Positions 1 through 24,426 of a stretch of DNA of 31,429 nt are shown here, in pieces. Below the pieces are notes generated by a model. That model was not told where the DNA came from and ran no database searches. It saw nothing but the letters and a program-made list of their open reading frames with translations. This stretch comes from a virus. The first letter of the stretch is position 1, and the number at the start of each line of letters is the position of its first letter. The position numbers and the translations under genes were made by a program. The stretch is from the IMG/VR virus record IMGVR_UViG_3300025890_000082, positions 1 through 31,429 of that record; one strand, given 5' to 3'.

Positions 1-187
1 CCTGCACGATGGCGAGCAGGCTGGCCGTGTGGCCGTGTGCCTGCACGATGGCGAGCAGGCTGGCCGTGTGGCCGTGTGCCTGCACGATGGCGAGCAGGTT
101 GGCCGTGTGGCCGTGTGCCTGCACGATGGCGAGCAGGCTGGCCGTGTGGCCGTGTGCCTGCACGATGGCGAGCAGGCTGGCCGTGTG
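1..187. repeat. 39-bp tandem repeat array (about 4.8 copies)
   Basis: Units start at 1, 40, 79, 118 and 157, and the last breaks off after 187. The copies are identical except for one C-to-T change at 99. Each unit ends in a doubled GGCCGTGT and contains GCCTGC and GCAGGC, which can pair around a 10-base loop. The array begins mid-pattern at base 1, so it probably continues to the left. The period is a multiple of three, so it is open in several frames, but no start signal makes it look coding. It could be a minisatellite at a phage end, flanking host DNA, or a collapsed assembly repeat. Confidence 0.95.
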
Positions 188-213
188 CGGGAAACCGCAA
201 ACGAAATAATTCG

Positions 214-1548: not shown

Positions 1549-1588
1549 GAACTGTTTTCCAATTTCAGATAGGGAGTATGTGAGAGCC

Positions 1589-1897
1589 ATGGCCAACGCC
1601 GACAATAAGATCAGCTCCAACCACTCCGACCTCACATGGGAAGCCATGCAGAAGGCGGCTGACTACCAACCTCTCAATCTCGACGAGGGTTGTATCGTTG
1701 ACATCATTCTCGGCACAGAAGTTGTGTTTGAGAGGCTGATTGCTGCAGCTCTCAAAGAAGCTCCTAATGAGGTGGATGCTGAAAAGACGCAGCTCTTCGG
1801 ACTGCCTTACGAGTCGTTCAAGACGCTGCAGGAAGTCCACGAACGTGCCGTTGAGCTTCGACTCCACGGCAAGAAGATAATGGTGCTCGGGGAATAA
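1589..1897 (+). CDS. Small hypothetical helical protein
   Basis: 102 residues, not recognised, predicted mostly helical. It has an acidic middle (DEGCIVDIILGTEVVFERL near residues 32-50) and a basic C-terminal helix (ERAVELRLHGKK). ATG 1589 is used here. GTG at 1580 is an alternative that adds three residues; the purine tract AGGGAG at 1571-1576 is 12 bases from the ATG but only 3 from the GTG, so the true start is uncertain. The stop lies one base before the start of the gpK-like gene at 1899, which suggests coupled translation. Confidence 0.6.
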   Translation: MANADNKISSNHSDLTWEAMQKAADYQPLNLDEGCIVDIILGTEVVFERLIAAALKEAPNEVDAEKTQLFGLPYESFKTLQEVHERAVELRLHGKKIMVLGE

Positions 1898-1898
1898 A

Positions 1899-2681
1899 AT
1901 GTACTTCAACATCACCCAGAACCGTGACCTTGCGGCTGCGGCACGCAAGCATGCCCTTGAATGTTTCCCCGAACAGGCAGTCGGGCTCGTCGTCTACGCT
2001 AAGCAGGACGGCATACGGTACGAGTACCTGCCGCTGGAGAACTCGTCACGGAATCCGGAGACGCAGTTTCTGGTCGTCGGCTGTCCGCAGGTCGAGACTG
2101 TGGCGGTGATCCACAGCAGGACGCACACCACGTCCAATGCCCCTGGGCTTCGCGACATGAAGCAGCAGCAGGAAATGGGCATCCCCTGGGCTGTTCACAG
2201 TTGCAACGGCACCTGCTGCAGCGAGCTGCAATGGTTCGGAGATCAGCTTCCGATCCCACCATTGCTGGGACGTCGCTTTGTGTCAGGCTACACCGACTGC
2301 TGGTGCCTGATACGAGACGTCTACCGGCAACAGTTTGACATCGTCCTGGAGAACGTTCCGCGAGATGAAGACTGGTGCTTAGGGCCAGAGCCTTTCGATC
2401 ACTTCAGCGAAGACAATATCGAGCGGACAGGTTTTGAGATTATCTCAAAGGACGACGCGAGACCCGGAGATGTGCTGCTTGGTCGCGTTAGAAGCAAGGT
2501 GAATAATCATTGTGCTCTGCTGCTTGAGAATGGCTACGTGCTGCAGCAGTTTGCCGGAGAGAACTTTCGATCGAGAAGAGAAAGCATTGCCCATTGGGGC
2601 AAGCTGGTGACCTACGTGGGACGTCACAAGAAGTTTGTCGATAATCCTGATTCTATCCCGGAGATTCGTGTCGATGAGTGA
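1899..2681 (+). CDS. Lambda gpK-like protein, extra copy: degenerate JAMM plus NlpC/P60 peptidase
   Basis: 260 residues in two domains, as in tail-tip protein gpK: an N-terminal JAB/MPN (JAMM) domain at about 10-110 and an NlpC/P60 cell-wall peptidase domain at about 125-245. The peptidase nucleophile Cys134 (in TDCWCLIRD) and His204 (in VNNHCALLL) are present. The JAMM site is damaged: canonical H-x-H...S-x2-D reads IHSRTHTTSNAPGLRD here, so the second zinc His is Arg74 and the Ser is Gly83, while His72 and Asp86 remain. The tail-operon paralogue at 23069 keeps the full motif. By eye the two share about a third of their residues over the whole length. This copy lies among unknown genes and about 1 kb before two small membrane proteins, so it may serve as a lysis enzyme or an accessory virion hydrolase. 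That role is inference. Confidence 0.85.
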   Translation: MYFNITQNRDLAAAARKHALECFPEQAVGLVVYAKQDGIRYEYLPLENSSRNPETQFLVVGCPQVETVAVIHSRTHTTSNAPGLRDMKQQQEMGIPWAVHSCNGTCCSELQWFGDQLPIPPLLGRRFVSGYTDCWCLIRDVYRQQFDIVLENVPRDEDWCLGPEPFDHFSEDNIERTGFEIISKDDARPGDVLLGRVRSKVNNHCALLLENGYVLQQFAGENFRSRRESIAHWGKLVTYVGRHKKFVDNPDSIPEIRVDE

Positions 2682-3324
2682 TTTTGATTTTGAAGATGAC
2701 CTGGAAGAATGCTTCTACGAGATGCTGGGAATGCGGCACGATCCCAGTGAGCCGAAGCTGATCATGTTGCTGCGTCGTATCAACAGTGCGAAGGAGATCG
2801 ACGAGCAGTGCGTCTATGAGTTCGAGGCGGTTGGAGAGAATGTGCGTCTCAGCGAGATGCTTCGACATGATGGCGGAGACGACCATTCAGCGTGGGAAGG
2901 GCAGCTTCCGAAGGACTATCCGGAAGGCATTCTGACCTTCAAGGAGACTCTGAGCTTCGTCAAAAATGAGTTGGCTCCTGCCCAGGGACCGAGGATCGGG
3001 GAAGCCGAGATTCGGCATGTGATGGAACATCACTCCTGCAACCGCGAAGAAGCCATCCTGGTCATCGAGTTTCATCGCGACAAAGAAGACAGTGAGCGTC
3101 GATGTCCGGAGTTCGGAGCATTGATGATGCTTCACATGATGGCAGCCAGCAAAGGCTGCACATGGAGCATGCAGGGCGACGAGAAGGGCAACTGGACGTT
3201 CAAGGTCAACACTCCGAATCCAAGGGACCGGTTCATCAGCGAGAACGGTCTGTTCTCGCAGGTCGCCATGGACACCATTCACCACCTTACGGCACTGCCC
3301 AGAGGAAACACTGATGCACGGTAA
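2674..3324 (+). CDS. Hypothetical protein
   Basis: 216 residues, not recognised. The first dozen residues are very acidic (MSDFDFEDDLEE). A helical, Glu/His-rich centre follows (IRHVMEHHSCNREEAILVIEFHRD, about 110-133), then a Met-rich hydrophobic helix (ALMMLHMMAAS). I chose ATG 2674, which overlaps the gpK-like stop by 8 bases and has GGAG about 10 bases upstream; an in-frame GTG at 2635 would overlap much further. It overlaps the next gene by 11 bases. Its coupling to the gpK-like gene hints at shared timing, not function. Confidence 0.65.
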   Translation: MSDFDFEDDLEECFYEMLGMRHDPSEPKLIMLLRRINSAKEIDEQCVYEFEAVGENVRLSEMLRHDGGDDHSAWEGQLPKDYPEGILTFKETLSFVKNELAPAQGPRIGEAEIRHVMEHHSCNREEAILVIEFHRDKEDSERRCPEFGALMMLHMMAASKGCTWSMQGDEKGNWTFKVNTPNPRDRFISENGLFSQVAMDTIHHLTALPRGNTDAR

Positions 3325-3565
3325 CGCCACACACCTCGATACGAATTCTCGTGAGTACAAGACCTGGATTCACCTTCGCCGCAAGCGTCGGGCCGATACC
3401 TGCGAACGATGGAAGTCATACAGCTCATTCCTGTACGACATGGGACGATGTCCGGACGGACTCGTCATTGGACGTCTTGACGCCACGAAGCTGTACGGGC
3501 CGGACAACGCAGCGTGGATGGATCGTCAGGACATGATGCGAAGGGCACGAGCAGCCAGAACTTGA
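3314..3565 (+). CDS. Small protein resembling the DNA-binding part of phage HNH/AP2-type proteins
   Basis: 83 residues. It starts Y-K-T-W with a basic stretch (HLRRKRRADTC), then W-K-S-Y, FLYDMGRCPDGLVIGRLD and LYGPDNAAW. This spacing (W..SF..FL.DMG..P.G..I.R.D....Y.P.N..W) is the conserved frame of a large family of small phage and homing-endonuclease-associated proteins that carry AP2- or HNH-like modules. I see no HNH catalytic triad, so DNA binding without cleavage is more likely. It is the last gene before the 185-base hairpin-rich intergenic region, with its start inside the upstream gene. Confidence 0.6.
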   Translation: MHGNATHLDTNSREYKTWIHLRRKRRADTCERWKSYSSFLYDMGRCPDGLVIGRLDATKLYGPDNAAWMDRQDMMRRARAART

Positions 3566-3629: not shown

Positions 3630-3677
3630 AGAGCCAGCCGGGACTACTTGGCTGGCTCTTGTCGTGCGCCACGACAA
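3630..3677 (+). terminator. Tandem hairpins ending the first gene block
   Basis: AGAGCCAGCC (3630-3639) and GGCTGGCTCT (3650-3659) form a perfect 10-bp stem with a 10-base loop. Directly abutting it, TTGTCGTG (3659-3666) and CACGACAA (3670-3677) form an 8-bp stem with a 3-base loop. The U tract after either is short, so termination may be partial or Rho-dependent. The position, 65 bases after the last gene of the small-gene block and before the membrane-protein genes, fits a transcription boundary. Confidence 0.6.
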
Positions 3678-3749: not shown

Positions 3750-4067
3750 ATGCAATTCCTGTTCAAATTGACCTTGCTTTTTGGCCTGGTTTGCACAGGC
3801 TACTCTGGTTACCGTTTCGTTTACTTTTTTCGATCCACGCATCTGGCGGGCAAGGCAGTGATGTGGATGATCGGCGGAGAGTTCGTCGGGCTGACGATCT
3901 ACTGCATGTTTGCCACACTTGAGATAGTTGGAATTAATCCTGACCCTCTTGTGTCTACGGCTTTGCGTAACGTAGTCTTTGGCACGGCACTTGCCGCGTC
4001 TATCCACATGTCGGGTGCCATTCGGAAAATTGGAAATGATGATCACCATTCTCGCACAAATCGGTGA
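3750..4067 (+). CDS. Small membrane protein, candidate holin
   Basis: 105 residues with about three hydrophobic segments: 2-20 (FLFKLTLLFGLVCTGYSGY), about 36-60 (VMWMIGGEFVGLTIYCMFATLEIV) and about 70-87 (ALRNVVFGTALAASIHM), ending in a short charged tail. Size and topology match class I holins, but I recognise no specific holin family. A ribosome site (AGAGGA) lies 6 bases before the ATG. The gene overlaps the next one, which is also a membrane protein, by 32 bases. The strong palindrome just upstream suggests controlled expression. Another small phage inner-membrane protein is equally possible. Confidence 0.6.
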   Translation: MQFLFKLTLLFGLVCTGYSGYRFVYFFRSTHLAGKAVMWMIGGEFVGLTIYCMFATLEIVGINPDPLVSTALRNVVFGTALAASIHMSGAIRKIGNDDHHSRTNR

Positions 4068-4371
4068 GCTGACTCCGTGGGAAAAACACGGCTTGCCAGG
4101 ATTGGTGATATTCGCTCTATTCGGGCTGGTCTTTTGGGTGATGAAGAATCACAGAGGTGAGCGACGGCAGTGGACTGTTGACGCAAACGCACGCGAAGAC
4201 GTCCGGGTGAAGCAGAATGAGACGTACATAAAAGTTCAAGGAGAGTTCTCGGAAGCCGTCAGGGAACTGGCTAAAGGCCAGCAGGAGTCTCTGGCGATGC
4301 ACAGGCAACTCCATGAAGAGAACATTCGAGCCAAGGCTCTTCGAGATGCCAATTTGAAAGGCACGACATGA
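4036..4371 (+). CDS. Single-pass membrane protein with coiled-coil tail, candidate holin or inner spanin
   Basis: 111 residues. One transmembrane helix at about 20-36 (GLVIFALFGLVFWVM) is followed by a long charged helix (residues 40-105, rich in Glu, Gln, Arg and Lys). That is the layout of inner-membrane spanins and of some coiled-coil holin-type proteins. Start ATG 4036 (or the adjacent ATG 4039) lies inside the previous gene; an in-frame start at 3979 would add 19 residues with no ribosome site. The ATGA overlap with the next gene keeps it in the virion operon. The lysis role is inferred only from topology and context. Confidence 0.6.
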   Translation: MMITILAQIGELTPWEKHGLPGLVIFALFGLVFWVMKNHRGERRQWTVDANAREDVRVKQNETYIKVQGEFSEAVRELAKGQQESLAMHRQLHEENIRAKALRDANLKGTT

Positions 4372-4702: not shown

Positions 4703-5605
4703 ATGTCGACAGGAATGGGACTGGTTGGATACCAGGGCAACTCGGGCAAGAGCGGATCGTCTGGCGTCATTTGCCAGAAGGAAGCCATGCCTCACGACAC
4801 GTCTCTGGTCACCATTGTCGAAGAGAAGGTCCGCAAGAAGCGAGACTTGAATGTCGTGTGCCCGTTGGCCAACAAAGGCTACAGCTTTGGCATTTGGAAG
4901 AAGGCTTTCAAGAAGCTACCGTTGAACCGAGCACACGTACTGATCTACGACAATGGCAACGACAAGAGATTCTCTCAACGGATTAGAAGAGTCTGCGACA
5001 ATCTCGATAGTTACACGCTGGTCCGTGATACGAATCCTCATTTGACAGCAGACGACTCTTTCGACTTTGACGCCATTGGGGCCAGGTGCCGATCCATCTA
5101 CGGCGAAATCTACAACAAGTTGATTGACCCTCGACGACCATTGTCGGTCAATCTTGAAGATGATGTGGATTTCAAAAACGGTTCTTTCGAACGGCTGGAG
5201 AGGATCATCAATGAGGATGACGACATCGCCACAGTCATTGGTCAGTGCAACTGTCGTCGGGCCATTCAAGTTGCGAACACTCTGCAAAGCATTGCTGTGG
5301 ACTTCAAGGTAAGTCAGATGCTTGGAAGAGCAGCTCAGACTTCGGACCTGGATATCGAGATGCAGTTGCTGCCGTCGAAGACGTTTGGGGTCGACATGAT
5401 CGGCGCTGGACACATGGGGCTGTGGCTGACTCGTACAGACGCCATTGCCGCAACTGGCGGCATGGGTCAGAAGTTCGGAACTCTTCGCGGCAACGACTTG
5501 AACTGGGGCTTTGGCGTCAATGCTGCAGGCTTGAAATTCGCGATCGACTGGCAGGTCAAGCTTGACCACTTCTATCAGAAGGAAGGTCAACTACTGTCAT
5601 GCTGA
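4703..5605 (+). CDS. Glycosyltransferase (GT-A-like) with a collagen-like N-terminus
   Basis: 300 residues. A Rossmann-like start (NVVCPLANKGYSFGIWKKAF, about 50-69) is followed by VLIYDNGND (79-87) and an acidic metal-site candidate NLEDDVDF (150-157). This fits nucleotide-sugar transferases of the GT2/GT-A type. The sugar, acceptor and linkage cannot be told. Residues 6-21 form five consecutive Gly-X-Y triplets, unusual on a transferase and more typical of phage fibres. A strong ribosome site (GGAGG, 4690-4694) precedes the start. It overlaps the sulfotransferase gene by 7 bases, so the two products are probably made together and act in sequence on one glycan. Confidence 0.65.
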   Translation: MSTGMGLVGYQGNSGKSGSSGVICQKEAMPHDTSLVTIVEEKVRKKRDLNVVCPLANKGYSFGIWKKAFKKLPLNRAHVLIYDNGNDKRFSQRIRRVCDNLDSYTLVRDTNPHLTADDSFDFDAIGARCRSIYGEIYNKLIDPRRPLSVNLEDDVDFKNGSFERLERIINEDDDIATVIGQCNCRRAIQVANTLQSIAVDFKVSQMLGRAAQTSDLDIEMQLLPSKTFGVDMIGAGHMGLWLTRTDAIAATGGMGQKFGTLRGNDLNWGFGVNAAGLKFAIDWQVKLDHFYQKEGQLLSC

Positions 5606-6192
5606 CGCTGAGGTGCTGCCGTGTTCTTCGAACACCGAAGACAGGAAGCAAGTGGCTCACTGCAGCACTTGAGGCTTCCTGCAAGTATTTTCACAACGTA
5701 GGTAACGGGGCAGGTCAAGGGCCGAATGGCTATCACGCCACGTTGCGAAACGTTGGCAGTAGCCCCCTTAAGACTGTTGCCTTTGTCCGACATCCTTTTA
5801 CCTGGTACGGCTCTTACTGGAATCACCGAGTACGACTCGGATGGAAACCTGAAGAGCATCCTTTTGACGCAACATGTGCTGATCCGGTCTTCTCTGAATT
5901 CATGAAGAAGGCGATAGATCATTTCCCCGGCTACTGCTCCCGCAGCCAGGCAATGTGGGTCGGGGAAGCGGAAAGCGGAAAACCGATCGACTTCGTTGGT
6001 CGGTTTGAACATCTTCATCGCGACACGACTCAGTTCCTGGAATTGTTCCGCGAGCCGTATGACTCGCAACTGTTGCTGGCCACAGCTCCACGAAATGGCA
6101 GCGACTATCAAAAACATCCAGCAGAGCTGAGTCCTTCCATGAAGGAAAGGATTGAGCAGACCGACTGCGGAATCATCAATCGATTTTACTGA
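5599..6192 (+). CDS. Sulfotransferase family protein
   Basis: 197 residues. The N-terminal RTPKTGSKWL (11-20) matches the PAPS 5'-phosphosulfate-binding loop (P-K-T-G-S/T-x-W-L) of sulfotransferases. VRHPFTWYGSYW (63-74) matches the 3'-phosphate-binding strand-helix with its conserved Arg and Ser. The C-terminus (LSPSMKERIEQTDCGIINRFY) resembles the usual family end. The predicted reaction transfers sulfate from PAPS to a hydroxyl, most likely on a sugar given the adjacent glycosyltransferase. At under 200 residues it is short but seems to contain both cofactor motifs. An 18-base gap separates it from the large terminase gene. The acceptor is unknown. Confidence 0.8.
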   Translation: MLTLRCCRVLRTPKTGSKWLTAALEASCKYFHNVGNGAGQGPNGYHATLRNVGSSPLKTVAFVRHPFTWYGSYWNHRVRLGWKPEEHPFDATCADPVFSEFMKKAIDHFPGYCSRSQAMWVGEAESGKPIDFVGRFEHLHRDTTQFLELFREPYDSQLLLATAPRNGSDYQKHPAELSPSMKERIEQTDCGIINRFY

Positions 6193-7785: not shown

Positions 7786-9335
7786 TGGCTGACGAAGATC
7801 GCCCAAAAGTTGAGACAACTCATCCGAACTATGGTCCGATTGCCGGGATCTGGAAGAAGGTGCGTGACGTCATCGAGGGAGAGCCTGCCGTTCTGCATCC
7901 GGAGAACGTCCAGACTTATCTGCCGCCCCCGCCAGGCATGCAGCCAGGACCGGAGCAGTCGATCAATGACAAGCTGACGAATCGACTGCAGTCTCGCTAC
8001 GAGTTCTACAAGACCTTTGCGGACTTCCCTGAGATCACGGCTCCGATGATTCAGGGCATCATGGGCCTGGTCCATGAGAAGCCGCCGGAATACAACCTGC
8101 CAGAGAAGCTGTCATACCTTGCTAAGAAGGCGACAGGCGACGGTGACTCGCTCGAAGAGCTGTGGCAGCTCCTGACCCAGGAACTGTTCTACACCGGACG
8201 CATGGGACTTCTCGCGGACGTGCAGGGCGGACTCGGCTTAGAAGGTGCCCAGATGCATCTTTGCCAGTACTCGGCAGAAGCCATTCGGAACTGGAGACTC
8301 TCTCAGAAATGCGAAGGAGAGCAGGCGCAGATGGTTGTGCTCGGCGAGCATGGCATGGCACCTGATCCGAAGGATGACTTCAAGCACATCGAGGTCATGA
8401 ATTATCGTGAGTGCCGACTACTCGGAGACGAGTATTGGGTTCGCGTCTGGACGAAAGTCGAAGACGGCAAGGTCGCTCCGGTAGTTACTGCAGAGACTGA
8501 TCCTCAAGGCTGGATGCGTCCCGAGTTGTTTGGAAGACCGTTCGAGAACATTCCTTTGACGGTCATCAATGCCACTGACATTGGATACGAGTATGGACCG
8601 GTCCCAGCCTGGCCGATGGCGAAGAGAGCACTCGCCATCTTCCGAAAAAGTGCGGATGCGAATCGCTCGCTGTACATCAAAGGCGACCCGCAGTGCTGGG
8701 TCACCGGAGTACAGCCGGACGACATTCCCGATGAGATCGGAGGAAGCTCCATCTGGGGATTGCCCGACTCCGAAGCCAAGGTTGGATACCTCGACATCGA
8801 CGGACAGGGAATACCTCTCCAGCTCAAAGCCATTGACTCAGAGTACAGTCGGTTTTACGGAGAAGCTGGACATCTACTTGAGAGCGCTTCGAAAGGAGCT
8901 GAGGCGGCTGAGGCTCTGAGGATTCGTCAAGGCATGAAGCAGGTCTCTGTGAAGGCTCTCGTCAAGAATGCCGGAGCAGGGATGCAGGAAGCGTTGCGGA
9001 TGGTCGGACGTCTGTCCGGCATGTCCGATAGCGAAGTGGAAGAGATTACTTTTGATCCGAATGTGAACTTCACTGAAGGCACGATGGGATATCAGGAACT
9101 GCTCTTCCTGATGCAGGCTAAAGACCTGGCGATTCGAAACGGAGTTCCACTGAGTAACGAAACGATTCATGCTCAGATGAGAAAACGACAGCTTACGCAT
9201 CTGACGTATCAGCAGGAACTCGAAGGCTCGACGTCGGACATCGATACTGCGTTTGGACTCATTGGTCGATTAGCGGAGGAAGAAGATGTCGGCAGCAACA
9301 ATTCAACGGGAACTGGCCAAACAGGCTCCGAGTAA
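7782..9335 (+). CDS. Portal protein (DUF4055 type)
   Basis: 517 residues. The opening HPNYGPIAGIWKKVRDVIEGE, the YEFYKTFADF segment and the GIMGLVHEKPPEY strand-turn follow the pattern of the DUF4055 family, which occupies the portal position in many siphoviruses. It would form the dodecameric ring at one capsid vertex that docks the terminase and later the neck. The C-terminal third has the long helices expected of a portal stem and crown (SKGAEAAEALRIRQGMKQVSVK). ATG 7782 overlaps the terL stop; the next ATG, at 7785, is better spaced from AGAGG and may be used. The last 50 bases overlap the next gene. Confidence 0.85.
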   Translation: MMADEDRPKVETTHPNYGPIAGIWKKVRDVIEGEPAVLHPENVQTYLPPPPGMQPGPEQSINDKLTNRLQSRYEFYKTFADFPEITAPMIQGIMGLVHEKPPEYNLPEKLSYLAKKATGDGDSLEELWQLLTQELFYTGRMGLLADVQGGLGLEGAQMHLCQYSAEAIRNWRLSQKCEGEQAQMVVLGEHGMAPDPKDDFKHIEVMNYRECRLLGDEYWVRVWTKVEDGKVAPVVTAETDPQGWMRPELFGRPFENIPLTVINATDIGYEYGPVPAWPMAKRALAIFRKSADANRSLYIKGDPQCWVTGVQPDDIPDEIGGSSIWGLPDSEAKVGYLDIDGQGIPLQLKAIDSEYSRFYGEAGHLLESASKGAEAAEALRIRQGMKQVSVKALVKNAGAGMQEALRMVGRLSGMSDSEVEEITFDPNVNFTEGTMGYQELLFLMQAKDLAIRNGVPLSNETIHAQMRKRQLTHLTYQQELEGSTSDIDTAFGLIGRLAEEEDVGSNNSTGTGQTGSE

Positions 9336-10065
9336 TAAGCGAACTGTTCGAGACCATCTTGAGAAGGAGCTGTTCGAGACGCCACCGGAGACTCGAACTG
9401 AGAACCTGCACGCACTGCAGGAGATGGTGACAGAGACCTTTACGAACGACTCGGTTGCTGATGAACTGGCACTGCGCATTGAAGGGTTGGCGACGGCACG
9501 CATCGCTGCATTGGCAACGACTGGTCAAGACATCCCGGTCGAAGGCTTGCTGACTCAGTGGTTCATGCAGAAGGCGTTTAGGCTGTACCTGAAAGGCTGC
9601 AGTCGCACGGCAGTCGCACGGCAGTTGGGAGTCGAAGAGCAGACTCACTACAAGTGGTTGAAGCAGGGACAGAAGCTGCTGGAGAAGTACGCCCACAATC
9701 CGGAACTTGAAGTCACTCGTCATCAGCTCAACACAATGACCTACTACGAAGGTGTTGTCACTGCGGAAGGCGTCAACGCCAATGAGCTGACCGGCATCAT
9801 TCATGAGGCGGCGAAGGACGACTGGCGAGCGGCCGCGCATATTCTGGCTCGACGACATCCTCAGGACTGGGGCTCGAATCGAGAGAAGGTTACGGTCGAA
9901 GTCACCGGAGAAGTGGAAGTCAAGCACACAGGTATTCTGGCAGTGGCTCCGGTCTCCGCCAATCTGGAAGCCTGGCGGGAAGAGACTGCTAACATTGTCG
10001 ATGTCGATGTCGAGGCTCTGCCGGACTTAACTGATGAGCTGAAAGAGCAGGAAGAGAATGGTTGA
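9286..10065 (+). CDS. Probable terminase small subunit in an unusual position
   Basis: 259 residues. A helix-turn-helix lies at about 99-125 (LYLKGCSRTAVARQLGVEEQ), followed by a helical linker. DDWRAAAHILARRHPQDWG (178-196) strongly resembles the W-x-A-A-x-x-L-x-R-R-x-P-x-x-W/F-G block of many small terminases. The C-terminal third is acidic. Small terminases bind the packaging site and load the large subunit. A strong ribosome site (GGAGG at 9275-9279, 6 bases before ATG) starts translation inside the end of the portal gene. It sits between portal and minor head protein, not beside terL. A DNA-binding head accessory protein is the alternative. Confidence 0.65.
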   Translation: MSAATIQRELAKQAPSNKRTVRDHLEKELFETPPETRTENLHALQEMVTETFTNDSVADELALRIEGLATARIAALATTGQDIPVEGLLTQWFMQKAFRLYLKGCSRTAVARQLGVEEQTHYKWLKQGQKLLEKYAHNPELEVTRHQLNTMTYYEGVVTAEGVNANELTGIIHEAAKDDWRAAAHILARRHPQDWGSNREKVTVEVTGEVEVKHTGILAVAPVSANLEAWREETANIVDVDVEALPDLTDELKEQEENG

Positions 10066-11158
10066 TTACGTCGAAGGTGAGGCAGAGTCACCCTCTGACT
10101 TTCTTCAGGACTTACTGATCGCTCACCAGGTAGGAATCCTGCGCGTGGCGAACGGGACAACACGTTCTGTCGTCAAGCAGATGAACGAGACGGAAGACGA
10201 GTTCATCGTCAAGATTCTTGCAGCGTTGCAGGGACTCGGAACAATTACCGCCAGCAACTTCATTCGCAATCAGCCGAAGGTTGAACGAGTCATTCGAGAC
10301 CTCAGTCGCGAGAGAATGAAATCATGGGAAGAGACGCAGACGCTGATCAACAAGGAGATGGTGGCCTTGGCTCTGTGGGAAGCGACGTGGCAGAACAAGG
10401 CAGTCAAACGAGCTTTGAAAGAAGGTACGGAAGCAGGTCGAAAGACTCCCTTCCGCGAATTCCTTTTCCCGGAATCAGCCGCCGAAAGACTGGTTAAGCG
10501 AACGCCAATCAGAGGAAAGACCCTGGGCACATGGACGAACCTGCTGGCGGAGAATGACATTGGTCAAGTCGCGGAGACGATTCGACAAGGACTGAAAGAC
10601 TCTCTTCCTGCGTCTGAGATTACAGATGCGATTCGTGGCACACCTGCTCGGGACTTCGAAGATGGGATTTCTTCACGTCTTCGAGACAAGGTGGACGGCG
10701 TCGTCAAGACGGCGTCCGTTGAGACCACGCAGTCTGTGCGAGAGCAGGTGTGGGTCAAGAACAAGAAGCGAATCAGCGGAGTCGTCTGGACGGCAGTTCT
10801 GGACACGAAGACCAGTGAGATATGCAGAGGGTTGGATGCTCACGTCGCGCCGCTGTTCGGCATGGAAGACACGCTCGATCCAAAGCTGCCTCGACTGAAT
10901 CCGCCTGACCGCAGACCCCCTGCTCACTTCAGATGTCGCTCGATGATGTCTGCGATCGTGGACGGCAGACTGCCCAGAGAGACCACGTATGAAGAGTGGC
11001 TCTTGAAGCAGCCGAAGGATGTGCAGAAGGACGTCTTAGGGCCACGAAGATTCCGAATGCTGGATACCGGAACCCTGGACTTCAAGAAGCTTTTTGATGG
11101 CCCTACCGGCAGACCTTTAACTCTGAAGGAGCTTAAGGTTAGGGAGAATTTTGACTAA
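10058..11158 (+). CDS. Minor head protein, Mu F / SPP1 gp7-like
   Basis: 366 residues. The signature of the Mu F-type head morphogenesis domain lies at about 225-295: VETTQSVREQVW, then VVWTAVLDTKTSEICRGLD, and PPAHFRCRS with its conserved Cys/His/Arg. Such proteins bind the portal during head assembly, and some are ejected with the DNA. The N-terminal 200 residues are helical. The start overlaps the previous gene by 8 bases, with AGGAAGAG just upstream. Two copies of the recurring octamer lie near its end, at 11037-11044 (plus) and 11098-11105 (minus), in different reading frames. A 142-base gap with promoter-like signals follows. Confidence 0.9.
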   Translation: MVDYVEGEAESPSDFLQDLLIAHQVGILRVANGTTRSVVKQMNETEDEFIVKILAALQGLGTITASNFIRNQPKVERVIRDLSRERMKSWEETQTLINKEMVALALWEATWQNKAVKRALKEGTEAGRKTPFREFLFPESAAERLVKRTPIRGKTLGTWTNLLAENDIGQVAETIRQGLKDSLPASEITDAIRGTPARDFEDGISSRLRDKVDGVVKTASVETTQSVREQVWVKNKKRISGVVWTAVLDTKTSEICRGLDAHVAPLFGMEDTLDPKLPRLNPPDRRPPAHFRCRSMMSAIVDGRLPRETTYEEWLLKQPKDVQKDVLGPRRFRMLDTGTLDFKKLFDGPTGRPLTLKELKVRENFD

Positions 11159-21932: not shown

Positions 21933-22282
21933 CATTTCCCTCACATCCTGACATTTCGTTTACCCAGGACTCGGGTGGCGAAGAAGTCGAATACATGGTC
22001 AAGGAGATGCAGTTCGCAGGCTATCGTCAGCGAGCCATCGTCGGGACCAACAGTCAGCAAAGTATCTGGAACCTGTCCTGCTCAGAGATGAGTCTGGCGA
22101 ACTCGAAGATACTTGCAGACTTCCTCGATGGACGGGCAGGGCTGCCGTTCTACTGGACGCCGCCTCGCAGCACGACACCTTTGTTGTTCACGACCGACAA
22201 GCGAAGCAGATCGTCTCTGAGGGCCACACACGAGACAGCAGTCGTCACGTACAAGAGATGGTTTGGAGCAGATGACTCATGA
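21929..22282 (+). CDS. Minor tail protein, lambda gpM-like
   Basis: 117 residues, about the lambda gpM length. EMQFAGYRQRAIVGTNSQQ, then W-N-L-S, ILADFLDGRAGLPFYWTPP and a C-terminal YKRW match the minor-tail M family. It is a tail-tip ring protein. Translation is coupled to the tape measure upstream (ATGA) and to gpL downstream (ATGA). Confidence 0.9.
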   Translation: MTFPSHPDISFTQDSGGEEVEYMVKEMQFAGYRQRAIVGTNSQQSIWNLSCSEMSLANSKILADFLDGRAGLPFYWTPPRSTTPLLFTTDKRSRSSLRATHETAVVTYKRWFGADDS

Positions 22283-23067
22283 CCGAAAATGCCAGCCTCT
22301 TACGTCGACAGCAGTCTCTGACTCCTGGTCGCGAAGTTCAGCTTTTTACGCTCGACACTACGGCAATTGAAAAGCTGGATGGCAGCGGCTACGGAAGCAC
22401 GTACAACTTCTGCTCTTCGTTTCGCGAGGATTCCCGAAACGTCACATTCAATTCCACGATCTACACTCCGATCGCGATCGAGGCAACAGGCTTCGAGACC
22501 TTGGGCAAAGGAGTTCTGCCCTCACCTCGCCTGAAGATTGCCAATACCAATCTGGAAATGACCACTCTCATTCAAGAGCTTGGTGATCCAGTGGGCGCGA
22601 GAATGACTCGGTTCCTGACCTTCGACAGATACCTTGATGACGGCAGCGAGCCTGATCCTGAAGCGATGTTTCTGCCACAGATTTATCTGATTGATCGAAA
22701 GGTCAAAGAGACTCGGATGATGGTGGAGTTTGAACTGTCCGCCTCGATGGACCAGGCAGGCAGAATGCTTCCCAAGCGACAGATTCTAAGAGATGCCTGC
22801 ACACACATTTATCGTCGATGGAACGGCTCGTCATTTGACACCGGGGCTGCCACATGTCCTTGGATCGGAAATGGAATCGCAGATCCCGACACGACTGGAC
22901 CTTACTTCCTGAATGACGATACGGAGACCGACGACCCTTCTCTGGACAACTGCGGTAAGCGTCTGCGATCCTGTGAAGTACGCCATGCTCCGGAAGACGG
23001 AACCATCCGACTCGATCTTCCGACAAGAGCCTTTCCAGGAGTTGCCAGAATCAGAGCGCGGAGATGA
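22279..23067 (+). CDS. Minor tail protein, lambda gpL-like, with Fe-S cysteines
   Basis: 262 residues. The N-terminal two thirds are beta-rich, as in gpL. The C-terminal domain holds four cysteines (174, 193, 225, 232), and the last two have the 7-residue spacing seen in lambda gpL, which carries a 4Fe-4S cluster there. Context segments are RDACTHIYRRW, TCPW, DNCGKRLRSCEVR. A fifth Cys (45) is N-terminal. The position between M and K is that of lambda. It forms part of the tail-tip hub. The stop lies one base before the K-like start. Confidence 0.9.
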   Translation: MTENASLLRRQQSLTPGREVQLFTLDTTAIEKLDGSGYGSTYNFCSSFREDSRNVTFNSTIYTPIAIEATGFETLGKGVLPSPRLKIANTNLEMTTLIQELGDPVGARMTRFLTFDRYLDDGSEPDPEAMFLPQIYLIDRKVKETRMMVEFELSASMDQAGRMLPKRQILRDACTHIYRRWNGSSFDTGAATCPWIGNGIADPDTTGPYFLNDDTETDDPSLDNCGKRLRSCEVRHAPEDGTIRLDLPTRAFPGVARIRARR

Positions 23068-23068
23068 G

Positions 23069-23821
23069 ATGTTCGACACACAGGTCACTGCAGCAGCCAA
23101 GCAGCATGCATTAAGAGAATACCCGAACGAGTCAGTAGGAGCCGTTTACGAAGGGACGTATCGCCCGCTGCAGAACGTGGCTCCGGAGCCAGAGAGTTCC
23201 TTTCGGCTGGAGAGTTATCCTGCTGAAGCTGAAGCAATCATTCACAGCCACACTCAGACGTCCTCTCGTGCTCCCAGTTTCGAGGATATGTCGAGCCAGC
23301 AGATAGACGACTCCCGTCGCCCTTGGGGCATCCTGAGCTGCAACGGCAAGGTCTGCACGGACATCGAGTGGTTCGGAGACGCTGCGACCGTGGAGCCTTA
23401 CGTCGGCAGGACTTTTCTAAGTGGCCAGAGAGACTGCTGGTGCCTCGTGCGAGACATCTACAGAAAAGAGTTGGGCATCAACACCTTGCCGAATCTCCCC
23501 CGAGGCGAGAACTGGTTTCGAGGAAGAAATCCTCAAGACCTGCTGTCCCGAATCAACATTGAAAATGCAGGGTTTTTCCGAGTCTCGATGAAGGAGCTGC
23601 GTCCATGGGACATTGTGCTCGGCTCGATCGGCTCGAAGGTGACCAACCATTGCGGAATCTATATTGGAGATAACCAGATTCTCCATCACACAGAAGACCG
23701 ATTATCCGCTAGAGTTCTCCTGAATCCCTGGGTCAAGCGACTCCGATATTACTTGCGACACGAAGCATTGAAGGATGAGTCTGTAGAAGACCTTCCTGAT
23801 CCGAAGGACGTCTTGAGATGA
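23069..23821 (+). CDS. Tail tip protein, lambda gpK-like: intact JAMM plus NlpC/P60
   Basis: 250 residues. The JAMM domain (about 5-100) has an intact zinc motif: IIHSHTQTSSRAPSFED gives His59, His61, Ser70 and Asp73. The NlpC/P60 domain (about 115-235) has Cys123 (in RDCWCLVRD) and His194 (in VTNHCGIYIG). In lambda-like phages gpK helps assemble the tip and may open peptidoglycan during entry. ATG 23069 follows the gpL stop, with GGAG 5 bases upstream; longer open frame to the left is a shadow of gpL. It sits in the canonical L-K-I position, so this is the orthologous copy and the one at 1899 is the extra. Confidence 0.92.
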   Translation: MFDTQVTAAAKQHALREYPNESVGAVYEGTYRPLQNVAPEPESSFRLESYPAEAEAIIHSHTQTSSRAPSFEDMSSQQIDDSRRPWGILSCNGKVCTDIEWFGDAATVEPYVGRTFLSGQRDCWCLVRDIYRKELGINTLPNLPRGENWFRGRNPQDLLSRINIENAGFFRVSMKELRPWDIVLGSIGSKVTNHCGIYIGDNQILHHTEDRLSARVLLNPWVKRLRYYLRHEALKDESVEDLPDPKDVLR

Positions 23822-24426
23822 AAACTATTTTTCTGTACGGAGCTTTGGCGGAGCAATTCGAACCAAGATACACCTTGGATGTCGAAACACCTGCTGAAGC
23901 AATTCGTCTGCTGGAAGCCAACTACCCTGGAAAGTTCGCCAACGCGATGCGAAACCAGTGGTGGAGAATCTCCCGGCGGGCGGAAGGTCCGTGCATGGTG
24001 GAGTGTGAGCTTCACATGCCGACATCGGCAAAAGAGTTTCACTTTGAGCCGTACACTCAAGGCGGATTCAAAGCGCTCTTCGGACTGTTCCTTGGAGGCA
24101 GTGGACTTGGTTCTATTTTTACCCCTTTGGGGCTACCTGCTTTGGGTGGGGGTGGGGCTGGCATTCTTGGATTCGGCGGAGCACTTGGAGGCTTTGGTAA
24201 AATTGCCATTGGCCTGGCTCTGCTTGGAGTCTTTGCTCTTATCTCTGGAGCACTTTCTCCAAAGGAAGAAGAGAAGGCAGAGGAAGATGAGCAATCATCC
24301 TTTCTCTTCAATGGTCCCGTAAATCAAACGTCACAAGGTGGACCTGTTCCGGTGGTTTATGGGCAGGTCATTGTCGGCTCGACCGTCATCAGTGGCGGCA
24401 TCAAAGTGGAAGACATTCAAGCATGA
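23818..24426 (+). CDS. Tail assembly protein, lambda gpI-like
   Basis: 202 residues. The N-terminal ubiquitin-like beta-grasp part (MKTIFLYGALAEQFEPRY, then TPAEAIRLLEANYPG) is followed by a Gly-rich hydrophobic centre (about 80-145). A C-terminal strand pair (FLFNGPVNQTSQGGPVPVVY, then GQVIVGSTVISGGI) completes the gpI pattern. gpI assists J/tip assembly. Both ends overlap neighbours by 4 bases. Confidence 0.92.
   Translation: MKTIFLYGALAEQFEPRYTLDVETPAEAIRLLEANYPGKFANAMRNQWWRISRRAEGPCMVECELHMPTSAKEFHFEPYTQGGFKALFGLFLGGSGLGSIFTPLGLPALGGGGAGILGFGGALGGFGKIAIGLALLGVFALISGALSPKEEEKAEEDEQSSFLFNGPVNQTSQGGPVPVVYGQVIVGSTVISGGIKVEDIQA

Follow-up and report, generated by a model that had tools for sequence, protein, structure and literature searches.

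Why would a phage carry a second, full-length gpK gene away from its tail operon when an ordinary gpK already stands between gpL and gpI? The question arises from the window analysed here, by which we mean the entire IMG/VR record IMGVR_UViG_3300025890_000082, a linear fragment of 31,429 bases from an incomplete genome. In lambda-like phages, the JAMM and NlpC domains of gpK are proposed to process gpI (PMC1779556), and the separate roles of the two enzyme halves are unsettled.

The additional gene, copy 1, encodes a full-length member of the lambda gpK family, with a JAMM and an NlpC/P60 half, in the class of about 250 residues (Table 1). It matches phrog_30 (minor tail protein, gpK type) over residues 8-246, both it and the resident gpK (copy 2) match Pfam NLPC_P60 above the cut-off, and the two proteins are 40% identical across 241 columns (E 2e-61). 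Its reading frame is intact and preceded by a GGGGA-type ribosome site. The gene is located left of the terminase, on the same strand as the tail operon, and is flanked by two genes termed A and B, whereas the only gpL and gpI of the record (starting at 22279 and 23818) enclose copy 2 in the lambda order gpL-gpK-gpI-gpJ. No second gpI was found in the record by tblastn, nor was a second gpL. Members of the gpI family have an N-terminal ubiquitin-like domain (PMC1779556). A preliminary description of this DNA had recognized two two-domain JAMM-NlpC/P60 proteins, one in the L-K-I position with the motif HSH...S..D and one of gpK type outside the tail operon; profile matches to both reading frames, gene order and flanking genes bear this out.

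Table 1. Features of the window around copy 1 and in the tail operon, with one feature of a second phage record in the last line.
Feature	Position	Strand	Basis
Gene A, upstream neighbour of copy 1	1580..1897	+	62% identical to L006 gene ending at 747
Copy 1, second gpK homologue, 260 aa, ATG start	1899..2681	+	phrog_30 1.2e-51; NLPC_P60 5.8e-10
Copy 1 predicted domains: pseudo-JAMM, ~residues 1-110; NlpC/P60, ~residues 120-245			pLDDT 95; PDB fold matches
Gln26 (CAG) replacing catalytic JAMM Glu	1974..1976	+	alignment, codons
His72-Ser73-Arg74 (CAC AGC AGG), second zinc-ligand His replaced by Arg	2112..2120	+	alignment, codons
Gly83...Asp86, Gly in place of the catalytic Ser, Asp ligand retained	2145..2156	+	alignment, codons
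Cys134, NlpC/P60 nucleophile, kept	2298..2300	+	alignment, codons
His204, NlpC/P60 catalytic His, kept	2508..2510	+	alignment, codons
Gln216, third NlpC/P60 catalytic position	2544..2546	+	His in 95/99 aligned homologues
Gene B, downstream neighbour, ATG overlapping copy 1 stop	2674..3324	+	38% identical to L006 749-1408
Small HNH-endonuclease-like protein, last of the left gene block	3314..3565	+	phrog_8790 1.5e-11; phrog_3377 3.3e-10
Strong 13-bp hairpin between left block and membrane genes	3630..3659	+	recurs in L006 (~1725-1757) and L007 (~365-400)
Two small putative membrane proteins	3750-4067, 4036-4371	+	homologous to L007 453-791 and 763-1116; no Pfam family
gpL homologue	22279..23067	+	phrog_18 3.7e-56
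Copy 2, resident gpK, 250 aa	23069..23821	+	phrog_30 2.7e-59; intact E-HxH-S-D and Cys-His-His
gpI homologue, the single one in the record	23818..24426	+	phrog_32 5.7e-33
gpJ homologue, 2019 aa	24423..30482	+	position after gpI; homology to L003 and L086 genes
JAMM-less NlpC protein of L095 phage (L172)	rc 10144-10605	reverse	Cys-His-His intact

In the JAMM motif, EXnHS/THX7SXXD, the Glu serves as acid-base catalyst, the two His and the Asp bind zinc and the Ser acts as stabiliser (PMC300881). Copy 1 reads Q-HxR-G-D at these positions; through E26Q, H74R and S83G it has lost three of the five catalytic residues, and the active motif E-HxH-S-D, a criterion of the gpK/TAPK family, is absent from it. 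The preliminary description had it as H-S-R...G-x2-D, with a zinc ligand and the Ser lost, which is correct; the loss is in fact larger, the catalytic Glu being replaced as well. Across 99 aligned proteins, drawn from IMG/VR, from phage records and from one genome and including both copies of the window, 96 have the Glu, 97 the second His and 95 the Ser (2 have Thr). A leave-one-out count of losses at columns at least 95% conserved, performed on 97 proteins, returned 0 or 1 lost JAMM-half positions for 96 of them and 3 of 9 for copy 1, every one catalytic. As judged from the alignment, the triple loss is unique in the sample of about 97 intact homologues, the others having lost one at most. 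Since identity to copy 2 is not lower in the JAMM half (43%) than in the remainder (39%), the JAMM half is not simply eroding. Mutagenesis of Csn5 has shown the motif residues to be needed, with the single mutants E56A and S128A each disrupting CSN deneddylation (PMC300881). The codons at two of the lost positions (AGG for H74, GGG for S83) are several base changes away from His and Ser codons, hence sequencing error is an unlikely source of the substitutions. Relatives with H-x-H had been considered a pointer to such an error; all homologues in tail operons do keep H-x-H, an orthologue of copy 1 was not found, and the multi-base codon changes speak against the error itself.

Structure prediction with AlphaFold2, run with 46 homologues, gave a pLDDT of 95.0 and a pTM of 0.90 for copy 1 (96.4 and 0.91 for copy 2). 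MepS-type NlpC/P60 proteins and Pyrococcus JAMM1 were among the best PDB matches of copy 1 in Foldseek, and whole-length viral NlpC/P60 proteins matched it in BFVD. Because of this confidence and these matches, the pseudo-JAMM half is predicted to be folded. In the NlpC/P60 half, the peptidase residues Cys134 and His204 are retained, as had been described, and the third catalytic position is filled by Gln216; residues 216 and 217 are both Gln where the common state is His-His. A publication that describes a solved NlpC/P60 structure names Gln among the accepted third residues (PMC3573020), so that activity of this half as a peptidase is plausible. Given Gln216-Gln217, the activity could be gone as well.

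Copy 1 begins one base past the stop of gene A, and in L006, a relative with a terminase 86% identical to that of the window, gene A is followed one base later by gene B with nothing between. The slot comparison is that of the window with L006; the next relative, L007, does not reach the slot. With the slot empty in L006 between the same flanking genes, copy 1 behaves as a one-gene cassette, by gain in the window phage or by loss in L006. It is part of a block of small genes that ends at the HNH-like gene and is followed by the hairpin. In the three phages, the place and the pairing of the hairpin are conserved, its sequence has changed and a TTGTTGTGCGC-like tail is common; it is a candidate terminator or processing signal. 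A promoter scan returned no match. Between copy 1 and the two membrane genes beyond the hairpin there are 1068 bases, which include two genes and the conserved hairpin, and the earlier statement that copy 1 adjoins two putative lysis membrane proteins is thus not upheld. The membrane proteins of L006 at the corresponding place differ from those of the window. In place of the window's second membrane gene, L006 encodes at 2186-2683 a PAS-domain protein (Pfam 5e-12) that has a hydrophobic stretch near its N terminus, which is unusual for a phage.

Other parts of these records deserve mention in their own right. Two probable sugar or sulfate transfer genes, the second weakly sulfotransferase-like, are located 5' of the terminase of the window (4703-6192); homologues are present in L006, and L007 has a different glycosyltransferase. 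The terminase large subunit of L007 (3172-5766, 864 aa) has an internal intein-like insertion (VPYGEVLTDRGWVDIAEVAAGD ... VYCLTVPDTETFFLRQKGCVWLSGN) that is missing from the terminases of the window and L006. A gene resembling a terminase small subunit (window 9286-10065; phrog_4102, 7e-17) comes after terL and portal, not before terL. At the extreme contig end (window 1-195), a 39-base unit (cctgcacgatggcgagcaggctggccgtgtggccgtgtg) is repeated in tandem about five times; the array may be genuine or may stem from assembly at the contig end.

Regarding the origin of copy 1, a tree of 97 rows places it as sister to the gpK of L086 (support 100/89), with copy 2 sister to L003; in a tree of 25 rows, copy 1 and L086 are joined at 96/86. 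The L086 gpK lies between gpL and gpI and has its JAMM motif intact. A tree of both copies with gpK homologues had been proposed in order to date a duplication, and in it the copies are not sisters: a clade of the two is rejected by the AU test on the 25-row tree (p 0.000374). Recent duplication of the resident gpK is ruled out by this test (p 0.0004). Of the common descent suggested earlier, kinship at the level of the family holds and derivation of copy 1 from the resident gene is not supported, the best sister being the L086 gpK. Transfer from an L086-like phage would be the simplest reading of the trees. Copy 1 stands out neither in GC content (55.7%) nor in codon usage, and so composition offers no hint of a recent transfer. 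We consider it quite improbable that copy 1 represents an old in-lineage gpK duplicate, predating the split of these phages, of which L086 keeps the orthologue in its operon. With the whole protein, a clade of both copies and L003 is rejected only marginally (p 0.064) and a wider clade with L087 and L088 added is not rejected (p 0.118), and a tree of the JAMM half does not tell the cases apart; however, the NlpC half on its own puts copy 1 with L086 (97/97), and with it the wider group is rejected (p 0.028), and L006, the nearest relative covering the slot, is without the gene. Copy 1 may also be a mosaic, with the JAMM half from the side of copy 2 and the NlpC half from that of L086, a case on which the JAMM half carries too little signal to decide.

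Second copies of gpK are scarce in the collections searched. Copy 1 has matches at 1478 places in 1476 INPHARED records, two of which have two places each. Whole-record searches of 45 IMG/VR records with gpK gave one further true second match, that of L095, a phage with a complete L-K-I-J operon and a separate 153-aa JAMM-less NlpC protein just downstream of J. This protein is 38-46% identical to gpKs of other clades and closer to them than to the phage's own gpK. Together with copy 1, it suggests more than one origin for JAMM-free second copies of gpK. The other double match, L168, had the look of a JAMM-less relative and is really an operon gpK of the L086 type that a frameshift, perhaps a sequencing error, divides in two (7792-8564). 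Scans of IMG/VR for an orthologue of copy 1, with the single sequence and with the alignment, found none; the single-sequence scans with either copy recovered no relatives, homologues being reached through alignments. Scans with genes A and B found only L006, and one scan of genome contigs gave nothing beyond a distant Caballeronia match.

Based on this evidence, we tentatively favour, at not quite an even chance, the interpretation that copy 1 serves as an auxiliary peptidase of the cell wall or tail tip, with NlpC/P60 as its only working domain and the pseudo-JAMM half as a scaffold. A gpK of the L086-type lineage would have been captured and would since have formed a cassette of one gene within the accessory operon on the left. 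Its JAMM half, catalytically dead and retained as a folded scaffold, would be unable to process gpI, and processing of the only gpI present would fall to the resident gpK; as the phage has a single gpI and an intact gpK to go with it, copy 1 would be free of the JAMM task. Its NlpC/P60 half would stay an active Cys-His-Gln peptidase, and the protein would be an accessory hydrolase of peptidoglycan that more probably travels with the tail tip or acts on the wall at entry than serves as a lysis enzyme. There is precedent in NlpC-only relatives of gpK (PMC1779556) and in the tail peptidase g14 of RcGTA, which degrades peptidoglycan (PMC7296036). In lambda virions, gpK was undetected and of gpI only residues 135-223 were modelled (PMC10721106), hence a place in the virion would be a departure for copy 1.

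The losses in copy 1 affect catalytic JAMM residues only, with the fold and the other conserved positions kept, and its donor lineage appears foreign. These facts would also suit a JAMM pseudo-enzyme that pairs as a partner with the resident gpK, or an inhibitor that poisons the tail assembly of a competing, L086-like phage by binding its gpI; in Csn5, mutation of catalytic and zinc-ligand residues has a mildly dominant-negative effect (PMC300881). Such a role is nevertheless unlikely in our estimation, for the Cys and His of the NlpC half are conserved too, which it does not need, and that three losses among 11 conserved positions should all be catalytic is, at about 0.06 by our own count, no more than mildly unlikely as a matter of chance. 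We give a similarly low probability to copy 1 being a relic, for which recombination would have picked up a stray tail gene that now drifts without function. Both active sites show changes, L006 is without the gene and an orthologue was not found, all of which a relic would explain; it would explain less well the intact frame, the ribosome site, the overlap with the start of gene B and the retention of most family-conserved positions. In simulated neutral drift from copy 1 to 80% identity, about 5% of copies were stop-free, a figure to be read with the caution that most of the divergence may predate the transfer.

The preliminary description had seen in copy 1 a tail protein repurposed as an endolysin or as a separate virion hydrolase, with no other endolysin in view. 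A separate hydrolase of virion or cell wall may well be right and is in line with the interpretation favoured above. That no other endolysin is in view carries no weight, because the record, an incomplete fragment of 31.4 kb, lacks much of a genome. Recruitment of a gpK as the phage's endolysin, with the membrane proteins downstream serving as holin and as a spanin-like partner, would be consistent with an NlpC/P60 hydrolase fold near those of MepS and autolysin domains and with the presence of two small membrane proteins further on; yet these belong to a different gene block, L006 combines different membrane genes with the absence of copy 1, and the protein retains the entire gpK architecture and has neither a cell-wall-binding domain nor an export signal by inspection and Pfam. 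In the absence of endolysin-specific features, we regard the proposal as improbable and as unsupported in the form originally given.

Inactive MPN subunits such as Rpn8 and Csn6 pair with the active Rpn11 and Csn5. By analogy, copy 1 could be a captured rival gpK turned pseudo-deubiquitinase, a decoy or partner that attaches to the ubiquitin-like gpI and in this way blocks or tunes the building of tails, whether those of competitors or those of its own phage, which would make it a viral counterpart of the Rpn8/Rpn11 pairing, and which we hold to be highly improbable.

The interest of copy 1 lies in the combination of a presumably dead JAMM half, a retained NlpC/P60 half and a normal gpK alongside. 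A natural separation-of-function mutant of this kind would make the question of the NlpC half's own role directly testable. Compared with lambda gpK/TAPK, copy 1 shares the two-domain architecture, the length, the conserved gpK motifs and the NlpC/P60 Cys and His, and differs in being a second copy outside L-K-I-J with no adjoining gpI, in having lost the Glu, second His and Ser of JAMM and in having Gln as third NlpC residue. With the JAMM-less TAPK variants and RcGTA g14 it has in common a gpK-type NlpC/P60 domain without a usable JAMM; in these, however, JAMM is physically absent, whereas copy 1 is predicted to have it folded, minus the catalytic residues, with a normal gpK also present. 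The NlpC protein of the L095 phage is likewise an extra gpK-derived protein beside a full L-K-I-J and closer to the gpK of other phages, but it is 153 aa long, JAMM-less, placed just after J and has Cys-His-His intact. Rpn8 and Csn6 (MPN-) resemble copy 1, here compared as a single-chain prediction, in a JAMM fold that has lost its catalytic residues with an active paralogue alongside, and are unlike it as eukaryotic proteasome-lid subunits without NlpC/P60.
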